From: Roseovarius autotrophicus
GTDB taxonomy: Bacteria; Pseudomonadota; Alphaproteobacteria; Rhodobacterales; Rhodobacteraceae
NCBI RefSeq assembly: GCF_018069895.1
Contig: NZ_JAGQDH010000008.1
Span: 62,001 to 126,000 of the forward strand
Direction of reading: 5' to 3'
DNA length: 64,000 nucleotides
Under the pieces are notes generated by a model. It had not been told where the DNA came from. It did no database searches and saw only the letters and a program-made list of their open reading frames with translations. Position 1 is the stretch's first letter. The number at the start of each line of letters is the position of its first letter. Both the position numbers and the translations under genes were made by a program. Positions 5,065 to 16,481 of this stretch are shown one piece after another.

Positions 5065-5084
5065 ACATTCGTGTGGGTGAATGT
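5065..5084. promoter_or_regulatory. ATTC-N8-GAAT inverted repeat, SqrR-like operator
   Basis: A perfect inverted repeat with 6-bp arms ACATTC and GAATGT and an 8-base spacer. It exactly fits ATTC-N8-GAAT, the operator consensus I recall for SqrR, the persulfide-responsive ArsR-family repressor of Rhodobacter capsulatus. It lies about 38 bases before the chosen start of the YeeE/YedE transporter and 10 bases after a TTGACA (5050-5055), so a bound repressor would cover the promoter. A second copy of the same pattern is at 8109-8128. Confidence 0.65.
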
Positions 5085-5121: not shown

Positions 5122-6186
5122 ATGCTGGAAATCCTCCTCGACACCTATGGCGATGGCGCCGTTCTGGCCATGGCGGGCGCGCTTGTTGGCCTGCTTTTCG
5201 GCGCGGCGGCGCAGCATTCGCGCTTCTGCCTGCGCGCGGCGACGGTGGAGCTGGCCGAACGCCGGATCGGTGCGCGCGTTGCCGTCTGGCTCATCGCGTT
5301 TTCTGCCGGTGTGCTCTCGGTGCAGGGCGCCATCGCGCTTGGCTGGCTCGACGTGAGTGCCGCCCGTCCGCTGGCCGCCACGGGCAGCCTGTCGGGCGCG
5401 ATCATCGGTGGACTGATGTTCGGCGCGGGCATGATCCTCGCGCGTGGTTGCGCAAGCCGCCTTCTGGTGCTTTCGGCCTCGGGCAACCTGCGCGCGCTGG
5501 TGGCGGGACTGGTGTTGACGCTGGTGGCGCAGGCATCGTTGCGCGGGTTCCTCTCGCCCGCGCGCGAGGGGCTGGCGACGCTCTGGACGGTGCCGGGCGG
5601 GGCGGCGCGCAACCTGCTCAACACGGTCAGCCTCTCGTCAGAGGCGGCAGCAGGTATCGCCGTGCTGATCCTGCTCGGCTCCTTTGCTCTCGCTCATGTC
5701 CGAAAGGTGCGCCCCACCCATGCGCTTGCCGCCGCGCTGGTGGGACTGGCCGTTGGGCTGGGCTGGCTTGCGACCTATGCCATCGCGCAAAGCTCGTTCG
5801 AGGTTGTGCCGATCTCTTCGGTCACTTTCACCGGCCCGTCCACGGACACGCTCATGGGGCTTGTCAACGAAACCGCGCTGCCGCTCGGTTTCGGCGTCGG
5901 GCTGGTGCCGGGGGTGTTTGTGGGGGCGGGCGGCATGGCGCTGGTCACGGGGGACTGGAAGATCGAGCGTTTTGGCTCCGGCACGCCGATGGAGCGCTAT
6001 CTGATCGGCGCGGCCCTCATGGGCTTCGGCTCGATGCTCGCGGGTGGCTGCGCGGTCGGCGCGGGCATGTCGGGCGGCGCGATCTTCGCGCTTACCGCCT
6101 GGATTGCGGTCGGCGCGATGTGGCTGGGCGCGATGGCGACCCATCTGGCGCTTTCCGCGCGCAGCCCTCACGCCGCTCTCGGCTGA
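5122..6186 (+). CDS. YeeE/YedE-family sulfur (thiosulfate) transporter
   Basis: A polytopic membrane protein of 354 residues with about nine hydrophobic segments. Three conserved cysteine contexts of the YeeE/YedE (sulfur transport) family are visible: HSRFCLRAA just after the first helix, LARGCASRLL and LAGGCAVGAGMSGG. Those glycine-flanked cysteines line the thiosulfate path in the structurally known relative TsuA. It most likely imports thiosulfate or another reduced sulfur species across the inner membrane. I start it at the ATG giving MLEILLDTYGD; a TTG at 5050 in the same frame would add 24 residues but would place the operator inside the coding region. It converges with the MBL gene at 6240. 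Confidence 0.85.
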   Translation: MLEILLDTYGDGAVLAMAGALVGLLFGAAAQHSRFCLRAATVELAERRIGARVAVWLIAFSAGVLSVQGAIALGWLDVSAARPLAATGSLSGAIIGGLMFGAGMILARGCASRLLVLSASGNLRALVAGLVLTLVAQASLRGFLSPAREGLATLWTVPGGAARNLLNTVSLSSEAAAGIAVLILLGSFALAHVRKVRPTHALAAALVGLAVGLGWLATYAIAQSSFEVVPISSVTFTGPSTDTLMGLVNETALPLGFGVGLVPGVFVGAGGMALVTGDWKIERFGSGTPMERYLIGAALMGFGSMLAGGCAVGAGMSGGAIFALTAWIAVGAMWLGAMATHLALSARSPHAALG

Positions 6187-6239: not shown

Positions 6240-7181
6240 CTATTCCCACTCCATCTGCTCGAAGACGCGGCCCGCGTTCTTGGTCGCCAGTTCCTCGAAC
6301 GTGTCGAGCCGCACAAAGGGCGACTGATCGACGTAATAGGCCCCGGCCAGATCGCCGCCCGCATCGATATGTTCGGCGATGCGCGCACGCAGATATTCCA
6401 GATAGCCCTTTGTATACCGCCGCACCTGATCCATGTTTGTTGGGTGGCCGTGGCCGGGGATCACATAGGTGGCATTCAGCGGCTCGAACTCATTGTCCCA
6501 GGTTTCCAGCCAGTCGGCGGTGATCGTGTTCTCGAAGATCGGCAACATGCGCTCGTGAAAGGCCATGTCGCCCGAGATGACAAGGCTTTGCCGGGGTAGC
6601 CAGACGACGATATCGCCGGGGCTGTGCGCGGGCCCGAGATGGCGCGCCTCGATACGGAAATCGCCCAGCTCCACGATATATTCGTCCTCGAAGGTCTCGG
6701 TGGGCGGCACCACCCGCGTGCCCTCGGCCTTCTCGCCGGTGATCCGTTGTGCGGTTGCAAGAGAACTTCCGCCATCATGGGCGAACTCCGCCGCCGCGTC
6801 CACATGCGCGATGACCGGCACGCCCTGATCCACCCAGTAGGCATTGCCCAGCATGGCGTGTCCTTGCCCGTTCTCGGCAAGGACCATCCTCACCGGCTCA
6901 TCGGTCACCTCGCGGATCTCCGCGTGCAGCGCCTCGGCCAGGGCGTAAGAGGCTCCGGAATTAACCACCACGATCCCCTCGCCGGTGACGATGAAGCTCA
7001 GGTTGTTGTTATGGCCCGCATTCTCGTAGGTTGGCGGGGCAGTCGCGCCGATGGCGGACCAGACGTTCGGAATGACCTCGACCGGCTTGTTGTAGAGGGG
7101 TGAGCCGGGATATTTGTCGGCGATCCCCTCACTGGCAAGGGCAGGGGAGGCGAGAAAGAGGATCGTGAGAAGCGCGCGCAT
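6240..7181 (-). CDS. Periplasmic MBL-fold protein with degenerate metal motif (SoxH-like)
   Basis: A 313-residue exported protein (signal to about residue 17) of the metallo-beta-lactamase fold, of the type next to sox genes (SoxH of Paracoccus) and quinoprotein relay hydrolases. NNNLSFIVTGEGIVVVNSG and GPAHSPGDIVVWLP match the fold; VIPGHGHP supplies a late histidine. The key motif is altered: where HxHxDH should stand the protein has ENGQGH (residues 103-108), so two metal-ligand histidines and the aspartate are lost and only H108 remains. It therefore either binds one metal differently or works as a non-hydrolytic binding protein. Its start is 3 bp after the stop of the upstream MBL gene, so the pair is one operon. 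Confidence 0.82.
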   Translation of the reverse strand: MRALLTILFLASPALASEGIADKYPGSPLYNKPVEVIPNVWSAIGATAPPTYENAGHNNNLSFIVTGEGIVVVNSGASYALAEALHAEIREVTDEPVRMVLAENGQGHAMLGNAYWVDQGVPVIAHVDAAAEFAHDGGSSLATAQRITGEKAEGTRVVPPTETFEDEYIVELGDFRIEARHLGPAHSPGDIVVWLPRQSLVISGDMAFHERMLPIFENTITADWLETWDNEFEPLNATYVIPGHGHPTNMDQVRRYTKGYLEYLRARIAEHIDAGGDLAGAYYVDQSPFVRLDTFEELATKNAGRVFEQMEWE

Positions 7182-7184
7182 GGT

Positions 7185-8096
7185 TCAGACCTCTGCCACG
7201 AAGCGATAGGCGCCGTCATGACGCTCCACCCGGCCCAGCCCGCCCTCGGGCAGGTGAAAGCCCACCATCGCCATACGATCCGTCGCCAGCATGTCCAGCA
7301 GGCGCGTGCGCGTGGCGATGCCGGTGTCGGCATCGTGATCCGCACCCGCAGGCCAGTCGGGACGCACCAGCGCCAGATGGCCGTTGCCGATGGCGTCGCC
7401 CACCACCAGCACCGCCTCTGATCCCTGCCGGATCTCGAAGGCGATGTGGCCTGGCGTGTGGCCGGGCGTGTCGTGGGCGAGGATCCCGGGCAGAACCTCT
7501 TGCCCGCCGCGAATGAACTCGATTCGGTCCTCGATCTCCGAGAGCCTGCGCGCTGCCCCCACGGCAAAGGCCGCGCGCGCCGCGCCGATGCTCTCGACGG
7601 TGTCGGGATCGGTCCAGTAATCCCACTCTGCCTGCCCGATCATGTAGCTGGCATTGACAAAAACCGGATCGTCGAACTCGTCCAGAACCCCCCAGAGGTG
7701 ATCGGGATGGGCGTGGGTAAAGATCACATGGGTGATCTCGTCCGCGCCAACCCCGATCTCGTCGAGCGACTCGGCCAGCTTGCCCGCACTGGGCATGAAC
7801 CCGGCACCCGAGCCGGCATCGAACAGCACCTTGCGCGGCCCGTCCTGCCAGAGCGTCAGGTTGCAGGGCGGCGCCACCGTGTCTCCCGTCACCCCGTGGG
7901 CGGCAAGGACCGGCCCCGCCTCGGCCTCGGACAGCGACCCGAGAACAAAGTCGCGCGGCAAAAGCAGGTGCCCGTCACTGAGCGTGTCAAGGCGCCCCGA
8001 ACCGAGGTCAAGCGCCCCGGCATGACCGCGTGCCGCGGCAAGGGCAAGAGGTGTGGCCGCGGCAAGTTCAAGCAATCTGCGCCGGGTGAGGATCAT
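7185..8096 (-). CDS. Tat-exported MBL-fold metallo-hydrolase (SoxG-like)
   Basis: A 303-residue protein with a twin-arginine-like leader (ILTRRRLLELAAA) and an intact metallo-beta-lactamase motif, THAHPDHLWG (H128, H130, D132, H133). Later HDTPGHTPGHIAFE and VVGDAIGNGH supply the remaining ligands. Length, export signal and position beside sox genes suit SoxG of Paracoccus, a predicted periplasmic zinc hydrolase. The substrate is unknown; persulfide or thioester cleavage during sulfur oxidation is a reasonable guess. GGAG lies 8 bases before the ATG. Transcription should start at or just above the operator-like repeat at 8109-8128. The second MBL gene follows 3 bp later. Confidence 0.83.
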   Translation of the reverse strand: MILTRRRLLELAAATPLALAAARGHAGALDLGSGRLDTLSDGHLLLPRDFVLGSLSEAEAGPVLAAHGVTGDTVAPPCNLTLWQDGPRKVLFDAGSGAGFMPSAGKLAESLDEIGVGADEITHVIFTHAHPDHLWGVLDEFDDPVFVNASYMIGQAEWDYWTDPDTVESIGAARAAFAVGAARRLSEIEDRIEFIRGGQEVLPGILAHDTPGHTPGHIAFEIRQGSEAVLVVGDAIGNGHLALVRPDWPAGADHDADTGIATRTRLLDMLATDRMAMVGFHLPEGGLGRVERHDGAYRFVAEV

Positions 8097-8108
8097 GATG
8101 GCATCTCC

Positions 8109-8128
8109 ATATTCGTATTATGGAATAT
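8109..8128. promoter_or_regulatory. Second ATTC-N8-GAAT inverted repeat, SqrR-like operator
   Basis: A perfect inverted repeat with 6-bp arms ATATTC and GAATAT and an 8-base spacer, 12 bases upstream of the start codon of the minus-strand MBL pair and touching its ribosome-binding site. It is the same ATTC-N8-GAAT pattern as at 5065-5084, in an A/T-rich island within GC-rich DNA, as expected for a promoter-overlapping repressor site. Confidence 0.68.
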
Positions 8129-9965: not shown

Positions 9966-10048
9966 ACCGGACGGGGTGTTCCGGTGACGGGTCGATGCGT
10001 TTGCGCCTTCCCGCCATCAAACCCTTGTCCCCTAATGATTGAGGGACA
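9966..10048 (+). promoter_or_regulatory. Riboswitch expression platform with RBS-sequestering hairpin
   Basis: Downstream of the aptamer a hairpin ACCGGA/TCCGGT (9966-9971 with 9980-9985) exposes a G-rich loop CGGGGTGT that could kiss the C-rich loop of the aptamer. A second hairpin TGTCCC/GGGACA (10026-10031 with 10043-10048) buries the only purine-rich ribosome-binding site (GAGGGA) of hupE. There is no T-tract terminator, so control is probably at translation initiation. Confidence 0.6.
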
Positions 10049-10049
10049 C

Positions 10050-10664
10050 ATGAAGAAAACCATTCTTTTGCTGGCGCTGCTGGGCGCGACACCGGCGCTG
10101 GCGCATCACCCGATGGGGGGCGCGGCACCACAGACGCTGATGCATGGTCTGCTGAGCGGGCTGGCGCATCCGGTGATCGGCATTGACCATTTTGCCTTCG
10201 TCATTCTTGTCGGTCTGGCGGCGGCCCTGTCGGGGCGGATGCTGGCGGCGCCGACAGCTTTCATCGTGGCGACGGTAGCGGGGACGCTGCTGCAACTGGG
10301 CGGGGTCGTCCTGCCGCTGGCAGAACCGGTGATCGCGGGATCGGTTGTCGCCCTCGGCGCGCTTCTTCTCGCGGGGCGCAAGCTGGACGGGACAGCGGCG
10401 CTTGTCGGGTTCGCGGCGATCGGCCTGTTCCACGGCTGGGCCTATGGCGAGGCGGTAATCGGATCCGAACCGATGCCGGTGCTAGCCTATCTGGCGGGTT
10501 TCGCGGCGGTGCAGTTCGCCATTGCCTCGGGCGTGGCGCATCTGGCCGCGCGCGCACTGGCGACCGAACGTGGGCAGGGGCAGACGCGGATCGCGGCGGC
10601 GCTGTGCTGTGGGATCGGTATCGCCTTCGCGCTGGAAACGCTTGAGGCGATGATCATGGCCTGA
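10050..10664 (+). CDS. hupE: HupE/UreJ-family metal (predicted cobalt) transporter
   Basis: A 204-residue membrane protein. It starts with a signal-like segment (MKKTILLLALLG) ending in a histidine-rich N-terminus HHPMGG, then HPVIGIDHFAF, the metal-binding signature of the HupE/UreJ family, followed by about six membrane helices. Family members near hydrogenase or urease genes carry nickel. Those under B12 riboswitches, as here, are predicted cobalt importers supplying corrin synthesis. The start was set at the ATG following the GAGGGA held in the riboswitch hairpin; an upstream in-frame start would lie inside the leader RNA. It is the first gene of the cobalamin operon. Confidence 0.85.
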   Translation: MKKTILLLALLGATPALAHHPMGGAAPQTLMHGLLSGLAHPVIGIDHFAFVILVGLAAALSGRMLAAPTAFIVATVAGTLLQLGGVVLPLAEPVIAGSVVALGALLLAGRKLDGTAALVGFAAIGLFHGWAYGEAVIGSEPMPVLAYLAGFAAVQFAIASGVAHLAARALATERGQGQTRIAAALCCGIGIAFALETLEAMIMA

Positions 10665-10697
10665 GTGGCCGGGCTGCGCTTTTAACCGGAGAAACCC

Positions 10698-11072
10698 ATG
10701 ACAATCGTTGACCTTCTCGTCTGCACGACGTGCAGGGCGGGCAATGTGCCTGCGACCGATGACGCCCCGCGCGCGGGCGCCACGCTGCTGGACCAGTTAG
10801 CGCGGGACATGCCCGATGGTGTGCGCCTGCGCGGGGTGGAGTGTCTTTCGAACTGTTCGCGCGGTTGCACGATCGCGCTGCGCGGACCGGGGCGATGGAC
10901 CTATGTTTATGGCAATATCGCCCCCGACAGCACCGATCTGTCCGCACTGCTCAAGGGGGTCGCGCGCTATCGCGACACCCTTGACGGGCTGGTGCCCTGG
11001 CGCGAGCGGCCTGAACATTTCCGCAAGAACTGCATTGCCCGCATTCCCCCGCAGGAGGCCCCGCATGACTGA
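10698..11072 (+). CDS. DUF1636 metal-binding protein of cobalamin operon
   Basis: A 124-residue soluble protein of the DUF1636 family, which has a thioredoxin-like ferredoxin appearance: CTTC near the N-terminus (residues 9-12) and CLSNCSRGC about forty residues later give four or five cysteines spaced like a [2Fe-2S] or metal site. It is found in alphaproteobacterial cob operons between the cobalt transporter and cobW, which suggests cobalt handling or a redox partner for a corrin enzyme; no biochemical function is known to me. GGAGAAACCC precedes the start. Its end overlaps cobW by 8 bp, so the two are translated together. Confidence 0.75.
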   Translation: MTIVDLLVCTTCRAGNVPATDDAPRAGATLLDQLARDMPDGVRLRGVECLSNCSRGCTIALRGPGRWTYVYGNIAPDSTDLSALLKGVARYRDTLDGLVPWRERPEHFRKNCIARIPPQEAPHD

Positions 11073-12102
11073 TCTGTCCAAGGTTCCCGTCACCGTCGTC
11101 ACCGGCTTTCTGGGGGCGGGCAAGACGACGCTGATCTCCCATCTGATCCGTGCCGGCACCGGTCGGCGGCTGGCGGTCGTGGTCAATGAATTCGGCACGC
11201 TGGGGGTGGATGGCGAAATCCTGAAATCCTGCGCCATTCCCGATTGCCCGGCGGAGAATGTCGTTGAACTGGCGAACGGCTGCATCTGCTGCACCGTGGC
11301 TGATGATTTCATTCCGACGATCTCGGGGTTGCTGGCGCTCGAGCCGCGCCCCGACCATATCCTGATCGAGACATCTGGCCTTGCGCTGCCCAAGCCGCTG
11401 CTGCGCGCCTTCGACTGGCCCGAAATCCGGTCGCGCGTGACGGTGGATGGGGTGATTGCCCTCGCCGATGCCGAAGCGGTGGCGGCGGGCCGGTTTGCCG
11501 CTGATCCGGCGGCGATCGAGGCGCAGCGCGCCGCTGATGACAGTCTTGACCACGACACGCCGCTGGCCGAGGTGTTCGAGGATCAGATCGCCTGCGCCGA
11601 TCTGGTGGTGCTGACCAAGCCCGATCTGGCCGGCGCGGGCGGTGTCGCGAAGGCCCGCGCCGTGATCGCCGCTGAAGCGCCGCGCAGACTACCGGTGATC
11701 GAGGCCATCGAAGGCCGGGTGGATCCGGCGCTGCTGCTGGGTTTGAACGCGGCGGCCGAGAGCGATCTGGCCGCCCGCCCCTCGCATCACGATGGCGCCG
11801 ATGACCATGAGCACGACGATTTCGAAACGCTCGTTCTGGATCTGGGCGAAGTGGCGGACCTGCCTGCACTGGCCGGGCGGATCGAGGCGCTGGCGCAAAC
11901 AGAGGACATCCTGCGCGTCAAGGGCCATGTCGCGGTGGCGGGCAAGCCCTTGCGCGCGCTGGTGCAGGCGGTCGGCGCGCGGGTGCGCCATCAGTTCGAC
12001 CGGCCCTGGCAGGCGGGCGAGACGCGGCTGACCCGGCTGGTGATCATCGCCGAGCATGGGCGGCTCGATCCGGCGACGATCCGGGCGGCACTGGAAGGCT
12101 GA
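11065..12102 (+). CDS. cobW: CobW, GTP-dependent metallochaperone
   Basis: A G3E-family GTPase of 345 residues. The N-terminus holds Walker A GFLGAGKTT (about 14-22), then NGCICC (the CxCC metal site), the switch segment ETSGLA and the guanine-specificity motif TKPD. A histidine/aspartate-rich linker (SHHDGADDHEHDD) precedes the CobW C-terminal domain. CobW is thought to deliver Co(II) to the CobNST chelatase, and here it immediately precedes cobN. The start at 11065 follows GCAGGAGG and lies inside the end of the DUF1636 gene; the open frame upstream is antisense-like and was rejected. Confidence 0.93.
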   Translation: MTDLSKVPVTVVTGFLGAGKTTLISHLIRAGTGRRLAVVVNEFGTLGVDGEILKSCAIPDCPAENVVELANGCICCTVADDFIPTISGLLALEPRPDHILIETSGLALPKPLLRAFDWPEIRSRVTVDGVIALADAEAVAAGRFAADPAAIEAQRAADDSLDHDTPLAEVFEDQIACADLVVLTKPDLAGAGGVAKARAVIAAEAPRRLPVIEAIEGRVDPALLLGLNAAAESDLAARPSHHDGADDHEHDDFETLVLDLGEVADLPALAGRIEALAQTEDILRVKGHVAVAGKPLRALVQAVGARVRHQFDRPWQAGETRLTRLVIIAEHGRLDPATIRAALEG

Positions 12103-12108
12103 CTACCC

Positions 12109-15100
12109 ATGCATGTCGTCTTTCGCGAAAGTCACGGGCTGGAGGAAACGGCCACGCCCATCGATCCGGGACAAGGCCCCGCCGATCTGGTGGTGCTGTC
12201 CTTTTCTGACAGCGATCTTGGCGCTTTCGCGGCTGGCTGGCATCGGGCGGGCGGGGCCTTGCCGTCGCTGCGGCTGCTCAACCTGGCGGCGCTGCGGCAT
12301 CCGCTGTCGGTGGATACCTATGTCGATACCACCCTTTCGGGAGCGAAGGGCATCCTGATCCGGTTGATCGGGGGGCGGGCTTACTGGCCGTACGGGTTGC
12401 AGGCGGTCGCGGCCCTGGCGCAGGAACGCGGCATCGCACTGGCGGTTCTGCCCGGCGATGGCCGCCCCGATCCCCAGCTTGACGAGATATCGACGCTGCC
12501 GCGCAGCACCCTGCGCCAACTGGCACATCTGTGCGCGCAGGGCGGGGTGGTGGCGGCCCAGGCGGCGTTGCAGCAACTGGCGCTGGCCTCGGGGCTGTAT
12601 GCGTCACCGGTTCGCGGGGTGCGCGCGCTGTCCGCAGTCAATGGCTGGACTGTCGGCGCGGGGCTGTGCTGCCCCGCCGCCTGGCACCTTGCCGCCACCC
12701 GCCCGCGCGTGCTGCTGGCGTTCTACCGAAGCTGGCTCGCCGCCGCCGACCTGCACCCGATCGAGGCGCTGGCGACACGGCTTGACGCCCTGGGCTTCGA
12801 TGTTCTGGGCCTTGCCGTGCCCTCGCTGAAAGAGCCGCAGGCGCGCGCCTGGACCCGTCGCTGGATCGTCGCGCTGGCACCGCAGGCGGTGGTCAACGCC
12901 ACCGCCTTTTCGGCGCGTGACGATCAGGGCTGCGCGGTGCTCGATATCGCGGGCGTGCCCGTGTTCCAGATCGCGCTGGCCACCAATGACCGCGCCCGCT
13001 GGCAGGGGGCTGCGCGTGGCCTGTCGCCCGCCGATCTGGCGATGCATGTCGTGCTGCCCGAGGTCGATGGTCGCGTCTTTCTGGGCGTGGCGAGTTTCAA
13101 GGAAACCGCCCCGCCCGATCCTGACCTGCAATTCTCGCGCGCCGAACATCGCGCCGACCCTGACCGCATCGCCGCCATCGCTGATCGTATTTCCGCCCAT
13201 GTCGGGCTTTGCCGCCGGCCCGTCCGCGACCGGCGGCTGGCGATTGTGCTCTCGACCTATCCGGGCAAGCCGTGGAACATGGCCCACGCGGTTGGTCTCG
13301 ATGCGCCCGCCTCGACCGAAGCGATGCTGCACGATCTGGGGCAGGCGGGCTATGGGGTGACGCCGGTTGACGATCTGGCGGGGCGCCTTGGGCGCGCGCG
13401 GTTGCGCTGGCCGTTGGCGGCGTATCGCACGGCGTTCGCGCGTCTGCCGCAGGCGCTGCGCGACGATCTCGCGGCAAGCTGGGGCGCGCCCGAGGATGAT
13501 CCGGCGGTGCGGGACGGCGCCTTTGTCTTTGCTGCGTTTGAGGCAGGGCAGGCGCTTCTGGCGCTGCAACCAGAACGCGGCCACCCGGATCGGCGCAAGG
13601 ACGCCTATCACGACATCACCCTGTGTCCGCGCCATGCCTATGTGGCCTTTTACCTCTGGTTGCGGGCGCGGGGCACCGATGCTCTGATCCATGTCGGCGC
13701 GCATGGCACGCTGGAATGGCTGCCGGGCAAGGCGGTGGCGCTTTCGGATGACTGCTGGCCCGAGGCGCTTCTGGGTGATCTGCCGGTGATCTATCCCTTC
13801 ATCGTCAACGATCCGGGCGAGGCGGCACAGGCCAAGCGGCGGCTGTCGGCGATCACGCTCGGCCATGTGCCGCCGCCGCTGGTGCAGACACGCACAGGCG
13901 CGGGTCTCGACCGGCTCGAGGCGCTGCTGGACGAGTTCTCCAACGCTGACGGGCTGGACCCGGCGCGTCGCGACCGTCTTTCGGCCGATATCCGCGACGA
14001 GGCGGGTGCGCTTGGTCTTGGCGCGGAACTGGGCCTTGACGTCACCACCTGCGCGACCGAGGCGATCACCCGCATCGACCGTTTCGTCTGTGACGTCAAG
14101 GAAAGCCGCTTCAGCGACGGGCTGCATGTCTTTGGCCGGGGCGATCATGGCGCGGCCGAACGGCAGGGGTTGTTGCAGGCGCTGTCGGGTGGATTCGTGC
14201 CGCCGGGGCCTGCCGGTTCGCCCTGGCGGGGGCGCGGCGATGTGCTGCCGACGGGGCGGAACCTCTTTGCCACCGACCCGCGCGCCGTGCCCTCGCGCGT
14301 GGCGTACGCGCAGGGCGTGCGGCTGGCAGACGAAGTGCTGCGCCGCCATTTGCAGGATCATGGCGACTGGCCGCGCGCGCTGGTGGTGAACCTCTGGGCC
14401 AGCGCGACCATGCGCACGGCGGGCGAGGAGTTTGCCATGGCGTTGCACCTGATCGGCGCACGACCCCTGTGGGATGACGGGTCGGCGCGTGTCTCGGGGG
14501 TCGAGATCCTGCCGCTGGCGGAACTCGACCGCCCCCGCATCGACGTGACGCTGCGCGTCTCGGGCCTGTTCCGCGATGCCTTCGCGACCCTGCCGCAGTT
14601 ATTTGCGCAGGCCGTGCAGGCGCTGGCGGCGCGCGACGAGGCCCCGGATTTCAACCCGTTCGCAGGCCGCGATCCCGGCGCGCGGGTCTATGGCCCGGCA
14701 CCGGGGCGCTACGGGGCCGGGATCACGCTGACCGAAACCGATTTTTCCCACGCGGCCCGTGCGGCTGCGGGCGCGGCCTGGCTCGCGGCCTCGGATCACG
14801 CGCTGGATCTGCACCGCGCCGACCCCGATGGCCTGCGCGCGCGGCTGGTTGAGGCCGAAGGATTCGTCCAGACGCAGGATCTGCCCGAAACCGATCTGCT
14901 GCTGGCCGCCGATCACGCCACGCATGAGGCAGGCTTTGCCGCTGCTCAGGCGCTGACAGGGGGCAAGGCCGCGCTCTATCATCTGGACAGCACCCGCCCC
15001 GAAGCCCCCCGTGCCCGCGCCCTGACCGAGGAAATTGCCCGCGTTATCCGCGCCCGTGCGGCAAATCCCGACTGGGCCAGCGGCATGATGCGCCACGGCT

Positions 15101-15354
15101 TTCGCGGTGCGGCCGAGATCGCGGCGACGCTCGATCATCTGGCGGGGTTCGCGCATCTGGCCGATGCGGTGCCGTCGCATCTGTTCGATCTTTACTACGA
15201 TGCCACGCTGGGGCGCGACGATCTGCGCGCCTTCATGGCCGAGCACAATCCCCAGGCGTTCGAGGCGCTGCGCGCGCGTTTTTCGGCGCTGCGCGCGGCG
15301 GGGCTCTGGATAACGCGGCGCAACTCGATCCTGGCCGATGAGGCGACGAAATGA
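12109..15354 (+). CDS. cobN: CobN, large subunit of aerobic cobaltochelatase
   Basis: A 1,081-residue protein of the CobN/ChlH family, which binds hydrogenobyrinate a,c-diamide and inserts cobalt with ATP-driven help from CobS and CobT. Recognisable stretches include LIHVGAHGTLEWLPGKAVALSDDCWPE-like text (near residue 525), the strongly conserved chelatase core, and TGRNLFATDP (about 715-724). It is somewhat shorter than the Pseudomonas denitrificans protein but close to what I recall for Rhodobacterales. CobS and CobT are not in this window. It starts 6 bp after cobW and ends in an ATGA overlap with cobG. Confidence 0.94.
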   Translation: MHVVFRESHGLEETATPIDPGQGPADLVVLSFSDSDLGAFAAGWHRAGGALPSLRLLNLAALRHPLSVDTYVDTTLSGAKGILIRLIGGRAYWPYGLQAVAALAQERGIALAVLPGDGRPDPQLDEISTLPRSTLRQLAHLCAQGGVVAAQAALQQLALASGLYASPVRGVRALSAVNGWTVGAGLCCPAAWHLAATRPRVLLAFYRSWLAAADLHPIEALATRLDALGFDVLGLAVPSLKEPQARAWTRRWIVALAPQAVVNATAFSARDDQGCAVLDIAGVPVFQIALATNDRARWQGAARGLSPADLAMHVVLPEVDGRVFLGVASFKETAPPDPDLQFSRAEHRADPDRIAAIADRISAHVGLCRRPVRDRRLAIVLSTYPGKPWNMAHAVGLDAPASTEAMLHDLGQAGYGVTPVDDLAGRLGRARLRWPLAAYRTAFARLPQALRDDLAASWGAPEDDPAVRDGAFVFAAFEAGQALLALQPERGHPDRRKDAYHDITLCPRHAYVAFYLWLRARGTDALIHVGAHGTLEWLPGKAVALSDDCWPEALLGDLPVIYPFIVNDPGEAAQAKRRLSAITLGHVPPPLVQTRTGAGLDRLEALLDEFSNADGLDPARRDRLSADIRDEAGALGLGAELGLDVTTCATEAITRIDRFVCDVKESRFSDGLHVFGRGDHGAAERQGLLQALSGGFVPPGPAGSPWRGRGDVLPTGRNLFATDPRAVPSRVAYAQGVRLADEVLRRHLQDHGDWPRALVVNLWASATMRTAGEEFAMALHLIGARPLWDDGSARVSGVEILPLAELDRPRIDVTLRVSGLFRDAFATLPQLFAQAVQALAARDEAPDFNPFAGRDPGARVYGPAPGRYGAGITLTETDFSHAARAAAGAAWLAASDHALDLHRADPDGLRARLVEAEGFVQTQDLPETDLLLAADHATHEAGFAAAQALTGGKAALYHLDSTRPEAPRARALTEEIARVIRARAANPDWASGMMRHGFRGAAEIAATLDHLAGFAHLADAVPSHLFDLYYDATLGRDDLRAFMAEHNPQAFEALRARFSALRAAGLWITRRNSILADEATK

Positions 15355-16481
15355 GCGCGCCCGAGGTCAAGGGCTGGTGCCCCGGTGCGTTGCGCCCGAT
15401 GATGTCGGGGGACGGGCTGGTGGTGAGGGTGCGCCCGATGCTGGCGCGGCTCACGCGCGCGCAGATGCTGGGCCTGTGCCAGGCCGCCACGCGTTACGGG
15501 GCCGGGCTGATCGACCTGACCAGCCGCGCCAACCTGCAACTGCGCGGTGTGGCCGAGGCATCGTTGCCCGCGCTTCAGACGGCGCTGGCCGGTCTGGGGC
15601 TGCTCGATCGCGACGAGAGCACCGAGGCGCGCCGCAACGTCCTTGTCGCACCCGACTGGCGCGCGGGGGACGATACGCACCGGCTTGCTCTTGCACTGAC
15701 GGCGCGGCTGGCAGACCTGCCGCCCCTGCCTGCAAAGGTGGGCTTTGCCATCGACGCGGGCGCCGCGCCGGTTCTGCGCGACACCCCGGCCGATTTCCGC
15801 ATCGAGCGCGGCGCTGCTGGCGGGCTGATCCTGCGTGCCGAGGGCCGTGCGTGGGGCAGGGCGCTGCCGCCGGGTGGCGAGATCGACGCGCTGATAGCAC
15901 TTGCGCATTGGTTCGTGGCCACGGGCGGCGCGCAGGCGGGGCGCATGGCGCGCCACGCGGCGCCCTTGCCGGAACCAGACGCCCCCGCGCCGCCGCGTCC
16001 GGCGCTGGAACCGGGGCCGTGCTCCGCAGGTCTTGCCGTCGGCTTTGCCTTTGGCCAGATCGCAGCGCCTGCGCTGGCCACCCTGGTCGCGCGCAGCGGC
16101 GCGCAGGGCGTGCGGATCACTCCGTGGCGGATTGCGGTTCTGGAAGGGGTGCGTTGGCTGCCCGCCGCCTTGCCCGCGGGCGTTCTGGCCGACCCAGAGG
16201 CCCCGGCCCTGCGTGTCGATGCCTGTGCGGGCGCACCCTACTGCCCGCAGGCCCAGGCCGAGACGCGTGCGCTGGCGCTGCGTCTTGCGGGCCATGTGCC
16301 GGGGCGGCTGCATGTGTCGGGCTGCGCCAAGGGCTGCGCCCGTGCCGGCCCCGCCGATGTCACCCTGACCGCCACGGCGCCGCACCGCTTTGACCTGGCG
16401 CGCAGGGCGCGCGCCGGTGCGCCCCCTGATCTGCCGGCGCAAAGCCCGGCGCAACTGCTTGCGCATTTCGGAGCATCCTGA
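15351..16481 (+). CDS. cobG: CobG, precorrin-3B synthase
   Basis: A 376-residue member of the nitrite/sulfite reductase ferredoxin-like family. CobG uses O2 to convert precorrin-3A to precorrin-3B by hydroxylation and lactone formation, the step that marks the aerobic pathway. The N-terminal ferrodoxin-like half has GLIDLTSRANLQLRG, and the C-terminal half has the [4Fe-4S] ligands in CAGAPYC and SGCAKGCAR. It overlaps cobN by 4 bp and cobH by 1 bp (TGATG). Its presence argues that this organism makes B12 under oxygen, in agreement with cobF and cobN in the same operon. Confidence 0.92.
   Translation: MSAPEVKGWCPGALRPMMSGDGLVVRVRPMLARLTRAQMLGLCQAATRYGAGLIDLTSRANLQLRGVAEASLPALQTALAGLGLLDRDESTEARRNVLVAPDWRAGDDTHRLALALTARLADLPPLPAKVGFAIDAGAAPVLRDTPADFRIERGAAGGLILRAEGRAWGRALPPGGEIDALIALAHWFVATGGAQAGRMARHAAPLPEPDAPAPPRPALEPGPCSAGLAVGFAFGQIAAPALATLVARSGAQGVRITPWRIAVLEGVRWLPAALPAGVLADPEAPALRVDACAGAPYCPQAQAETRALALRLAGHVPGRLHVSGCAKGCARAGPADVTLTATAPHRFDLARRARAGAPPDLPAQSPAQLLAHFGAS

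Follow-up and report, generated by a model that had tools for sequence, protein, structure and literature searches.

The window analysed here, a stretch of 64,000 nucleotides from Roseovarius autotrophicus, covers the right part of a sox cluster. To the left of the window, by our reading, a YeeE-like gene, soxR and soxS lie on the minus strand and soxV, W, X, Y, Z, A and B on the plus strand, with soxB running into the window; the SoxX and Sulf_transp domain assignments are backed by family search. Within the window follow soxC, soxD, soxE, a gene for a soxF-like flavoprotein, a DUF302 gene, a SoxT2-like gene and then, on the minus strand, a pair of genes encoding MBL hydrolases. The YeeE-like transporter in the SoxT2 position (5124 to 6186, plus strand) was assigned from its similarity to sox-linked YeeE-like genes and from its position; its open reading frame had no match in the family searches, and the name soxT2 follows the available part of PMC11582611. 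To the right of the pair (10041 to 16481), a HupE/UreJ-like gene is followed by CobW-, CobN- and CobG-like genes, as read from their translations. With regard to related sox regions, a cluster of 5-aminolevulinate synthase-like genes is found near soxG in L079 and 12 other loci, possibly serving the haem supply for Sox cytochromes, and such a gene is also named in the accessible part of PMC11034169.

The first protein of the MBL pair, in the SoxG position, has 303 amino acids (7185 to 8096, minus strand) and matches Pfam Lactamase_B with 68.3 bits. Its metal ligands, H128, H130, D132, H133, H213, D234 and H281, fall in alignment columns that are invariant in 23 of 23 sequences, its own included, and our reading of the alignment places a twin-arginine-type motif at its N terminus. 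The second protein, in the SoxH position, has 313 amino acids (6240 to 7181, minus strand) and its gene starts 3 bp beyond the stop codon of the first gene. The invariant ligands and the twin-arginine-type motif point to exported metal-dependent hydrolases. The SoxH-position protein scores below the cut-offs of two quinoprotein relay metallohydrolase families, TIGR04559 SoxH_rel (146.4 bits, cut-off 280) and TIGR04558 (132 bits, cut-off 300). The first protein shares its sequence family and conserved metal ligands with AidB-type lactonases and methyl parathion hydrolase, but differs from the AidB quorum-quenching lactonase family in staying below its cut-off (141.5 of 360 bits) and in being sox-associated. 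A role as persulfide dioxygenase was considered for this protein and rejected, its best solved relatives being an MBL hydrolase, organophosphorus and methyl parathion hydrolases and lactonases.

In Paracoccus ferrooxidans, an adjacent MBL pair starts 17 bp after a soxF-like gene, and its members are 56% and 66% identical to the first and second protein described here, respectively, so that the pair is common to the Paracoccus soxFGH arrangement and the Roseovarius locus. On account of this shared gene order and homology the two genes are placed as soxG and soxH, names that follow the gene order. To our knowledge, neither SoxG nor SoxH has a settled role. The soxF/G/H naming is used in a 2024 survey of Sulfitobacter, which, in its available part, describes the unnamed genes intervening between soxF and soxH, DUF302 and YeeE genes among them, as in need of further study (PMC11034169).

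The dyad before soxGH and its conservation

An exact dyad, ATATTC-GTATTATG-GAATAT, occupies positions 8109 to 8128 with 0 mismatches and no strand assigned (surrounding window sequence: CCATATTCGTATTATGGAATATG), its core ATTC-N8-GAAT spanning 8111 to 8126. It is separated by 12 bp from the ATG (8096) of the first MBL gene on the minus strand and lies at -30 from that start; an earlier, sequence-only reading of this DNA had described a perfect repeat 12 bp from the start of the MBL operon, which is exact. The site has an operator matrix score of 26.8, the second best among the 28 exact sites of the genome. No sigma-70-like promoter was found near the dyad. The motif itself is not new, since ATTC-N8-GAAT has been published as the deduced SqrR site (PMC9774250, in the part available); in the accessible portions of the open-licence literature, no report of an operator for soxGH was found.

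Conservation was assessed in two sets of relatives, which share species and within each of which related loci are not independent. For the family set, 149 genomes were searched, and larger loci were taken for 48 orthologs, 21 middle-group homologs and 11 weaker paralogs, these last being part of the remaining weaker matches; a site was counted if the exact motif fell within -120 to +15 of the start. The named-genome set consists of the best 80 of at least 492 relatives. In the family set the exact motif precedes 30 of the 48 orthologs (45–59% identity, the window's own excluded), where mononucleotide shuffling leads to an expectation of 0.05, as well as 6 of the 21 middle-group homologs (34–40% identity) and 0 of the 11 weaker paralogs. 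Before the named-genome loci (best 80 of at least 492, the window's own again excluded) it is present in 56 of 80. Spacings other than N8 reach at most 5 of the 48 family orthologs, and the distance from site to start varies in relatives from -25 to -78, mostly -25 to -66.

A scan of 5,376 dyads (256 four-base arms by 21 spacings), from which in-operon loci were excluded (4 of 48 and 15 of 80), ranked ATTC-N8-GAAT first in both sets, with 30 of 44 family loci (runner-up 10) and 56 of 65 named loci from the best 80 of at least 492 (runner-up 11). Outside the sox operon the exact site is missing from 14 of these 44 and 9 of these 65. An operator matrix trained on the named set (best 80 of at least 492) and applied to the family set reached 12 or more at 39 of the 44 orthologs not lying in a sox operon, compared with 12 of 867 background regions, and fell below 0 at L093, L096 and L102. 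When the MBL cluster was taken by called rather than aligned starts, 27 of 61 had the site. With regard to specificity, the site turned up before 8 of 891 other genes of these loci, the window's own included; among the 8 are four soxB genes, the window's own SoxT2 gene and at least two genes that diverge from the MBL gene and share its upstream region. Upstream of soxX the exact motif also ranks first and is found in 24 of 30 loci, own included, the loci coming from the best 30 of the 93 genomes in which SoxX was matched. The proposal of a persulfide-sensing, SqrR/SoxR-class operator before a SoxG/SoxH-like pair, for which the sequence-only reading had itself named conservation in relatives as one test, is supported by the ortholog counts and the scan rank: the dyad has the ATTC-N8-GAAT form, is promoter-proximal and conserved before orthologs, and belongs to a genome with two candidate dithiol ArsR repressors.

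In L085, L087, L094 and L095, soxB has an ATTC-N8-GAAT of its own at about -40, so that the sox genes of these genomes may form two or more units.

Further sites in the genome

Within the window, ATTC-N8-GAAT occurs three times (755, 5067 and 8111) where 0.56 are expected, and three or more were reached in 2 of 100 shuffles. Taken alone this count is modest evidence, the strong part being the conservation in relatives; the earlier reading had counted two of the three sites. The third exact match (755 to 770, no strand assigned) lies inside soxC, has a matrix score of 3.8 and is probably a chance occurrence outside the system. The whole genome (3.68 Mb) holds 28 exact sites, 4 of them inside 12 kb of the sox region, where the fourth (C80:58154) is found 84 bp upstream of the soxX start within a longer palindrome. 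Only five of the 28 score above 20, namely those before soxX, soxGH, a rhodanese-domain gene, a gene in a phage-like region and SoxT2, and the sixth-ranked site scores 10.3. Judged by the matrix, a small regulon under this operator, as had been suggested, is plausible, but the SoxT2 site is not conserved.

That companion dyad, ACATTC-N8-GAATGT (5065 to 5084, no strand assigned, score 21.7), turned up in just 1 of 14 upstream regions, namely that of the window itself, and in 0 of 3 SoxT2 orthologs above 100 bits, and is thus either lineage-specific or due to chance. The idea of a companion operator before a second sulfur unit is not sustained, and the two dyads are of one identical class in their 8 core bases, while the outer arms (ATATTC and ACATTC) and the N8 differ.

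The site before the rhodanese-domain gene is an exact ATATTC-N8-GAATAT (C11:413279-413298; L009:1499-1518) with a score of 23.8, 15 bp before the ATG (C11:413314). It is carried by 0 of 17 homologs, which are only 31–44% identical and so perhaps not orthologs. According to the available part of PMC9995734, a rhodanese is under SqrR control in Rhodobacter capsulatus. The site at C44:37801-37816 (L023:2002; score 21.9) precedes a gene without Pfam match in a region that reads as phage-like to us; it was set aside as probably a chance match.

The site and its gene context

To classify gene contexts, SoxF, SoxE, SoxC, SoxB and DUF302 served as the five tblastn queries against the flanking DNA, which in the named set measured at most 6 kb per side, or less where contigs were short, for which reason a locus with no sox hit does not amount to a sox-free genome. 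In this set (best 80 of at least 492), 0 of 15 loci carry the site when the gene is preceded by sox genes of the same orientation, the estimated end of SoxF lying 13–113 bp before the gene in 13 of these 15. Of the loci with nearby sox genes in other arrangements, 37 of 44 carry it, with 4 more at one mismatch, and of those with no sox match in the DNA examined around the gene, 19 of 21 do. The contrast of 56 of 65 with 0 of 15 has a Fisher probability of 2e-10, calculated on related loci that are not independent. The family set agrees less sharply, with 0 of 4 in-operon loci, 15 of 21 otherwise sox-linked and 15 of 23 unlinked; the four in-operon loci, hand-picked from the gene map, have matrix scores of -12.0 or less. 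P. ferrooxidans, where the pair follows the soxF-like gene, has no exact site in the 14.8 kb examined. As the site is absent in the operon and usual elsewhere, the SoxG gene as a rule carries a separate site only where the sox promoter cannot be shared.

Among the unlinked family loci, 17 have one or more neighbours from a group made up of rpe, an AhpC/TSA-Redoxin gene, a phosphoglycolate phosphatase gene and a second HAD hydrolase gene, families of the neighbour clusters being assigned from representatives, and the exact site is present in 12 of these 17. Unlinked SoxG homologs adjoining rpe, redoxin-family and phosphoglycolate phosphatase genes are seen in L063, L075, L076, L077, L086 and similar loci, a neighbourhood that hints at a link from sulfur oxidation to the Calvin cycle or photorespiration. 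In the middle group, the exact site precedes 6 of 9 genes beside a redoxin gene, a ferredoxin-reductase-like gene and rsmD, 0 of 7 beside riboflavin-synthesis genes (six assigned by ribB and ribH clusters, L121 by one shared neighbour only) and 0 of the remaining 5 in other contexts; L117 and L118, in non-redoxin contexts and lacking an exact site, have matrix scores of 13.0 and 16.4. These counts indicate that the site follows context more than protein fold.

At the level of genomes, SoxB is present in 49 of 49 genomes with a SoxG ortholog, own included, against 94 of 149 overall (hypergeometric 2e-13), and this holds also where the SoxG gene is far from the sox cluster. The reverse fails, as 45 of the 94 SoxB genomes are without a SoxG ortholog and 27 without either an ortholog or a middle-group homolog. 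A SqrR-type regulator (E 1e-18) was detected in 125 of 149 genomes, among them all 49 with a SoxG ortholog and all 70 with an ortholog or middle-group homolog, so that none of these 70 falls among the 24 genomes without such a match.

Candidate regulators and a proposed place of soxGH in the Sox regulon

The sox cluster encodes a SoxR of 104 amino acids (C80:56007-56318, minus strand) of the ArsR family, with an HTH_5 match of 39.7 bits and two sensor cysteines. Among solved structures it is closest to the 6o8k-6o8o chains, which carry an ArsR-family label and which we take to be R. capsulatus SqrR, and its cysteines in MILCHL and YDMFCR align to those in MIMCYL and YEQFCS of these chains. At 99.3 bits it stays below the cut-off of 155 for the NCBIfam BigR equivalog; it is SqrR-like and not filed as BigR. 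A second SqrR-type regulator, 66% identical to SoxR and with both sensor cysteines, is encoded at C75:68861-69154 (L137) and also falls below the BigR cut-off, at 100.2 bits.

The dyad is very probably the binding site of a dithiol repressor of the SoxR/SqrR type, most likely the SoxR of the same sox cluster, a prediction made from the DNA and its relatives. The core motif is that of the SqrR operators of R. capsulatus, and a two-cysteine ArsR-family repressor is present here too. There, a peroxiredoxin, sqr, a sulfurtransferase, a rhodanese and a disulfide reductase are raised by sulfide and by loss of sqrR, soxGH being unnamed in the available part of that report (PMC9995734). The locus type and the regulator family are also those of the sox clusters of Paracoccus and Pseudaminobacter, in whose promoter-operator segments SoxR binding regions have been reported (PMC10451225, in the part available), whereas the Roseovarius site serves a soxGH unit transcribed apart from the sox operon. 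The geometry is comparable to that of the E. coli homolog YgaV, which, according to the accessible part of PMC9774250, has its binding site close to a transcription start 28 bp ahead of the start codon.

The operator could instead belong chiefly to the paralog encoded at C75:68861-69154, which would make soxGH a target of sulfide stress and not of the Sox pathway. This paralog has both cysteines, and its match to 6o8k is slightly stronger than that of SoxR (131.2 against 120.9 bits); yet the motif is also found before soxX, whose resident regulator is SoxR, every genome with a SoxG ortholog has SoxB as well, and no operator scoring above 9 was found in the 14 kb around the paralog gene, which leaves this explanation unlikely. 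Far less probable still is a leader RNA hairpin acting on translation. Although the dyad can pair beside the ribosome-binding site, it folds little better than shuffled sequence (z -0.55, equalled or surpassed by 54 of 200 shuffles), its distance to the start varies widely in relatives, and the scan yields a single arm sequence at a single spacing and no other pairing arms, as for a protein site. That the dyad is a chance palindrome in AT-rich promoter DNA, for which the modest excess in the window alone might speak, is practically discounted by its conservation far beyond the shuffled expectation, its spacing specificity and its context dependence.

The best reading of these data is therefore that the detached soxGH unit is kept in the Sox regulon by a SoxR/SqrR-type operator, with SoxR, encoded about 14 kb from the dyad, as the candidate repressor. 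When oxidisable sulfur is lacking, a repressor dimer would occupy the dyad, which, reaching to 12 bp from the soxG start codon, probably covers the transcription start, and would thereby block soxGH transcription. Sulfane sulfur from the oxidation of thiosulfate or sulfide would then enter the cell and bridge the two cysteines of the repressor, much as Hyphomicrobium SoxR is described to respond to sulfur bridging its cysteines (PMC10451225, in the part available). The bridged repressor would leave the dyad, and soxGH would be transcribed along with the sox operon. As for the task of the enzymes, a site that is usual where the genes are detached from the sox operon and absent inside it makes it very likely that the MBL proteins belong to the sulfur-oxidation programme.

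A wider reading, which we put forward tentatively and at somewhat less than even chance, is that SoxG is an overlooked member of the Sox regulon, widespread but not universal, and that selection keeps or recreates a SoxR operator once its gene has moved out of the sox operon, including at loci beside rpe, redoxin-family and phosphoglycolate phosphatase genes. The operator matrix derived here can be used across this bacterial family. The presence of the operator outside the sox operon and its absence inside provide independent evidence of a role of soxGH alongside thiosulfate or sulfide oxidation and, if SoxG does belong to the Sox regulon, the pathway would include an exported metallo-hydrolase step that is absent from the standard Sox cycle.
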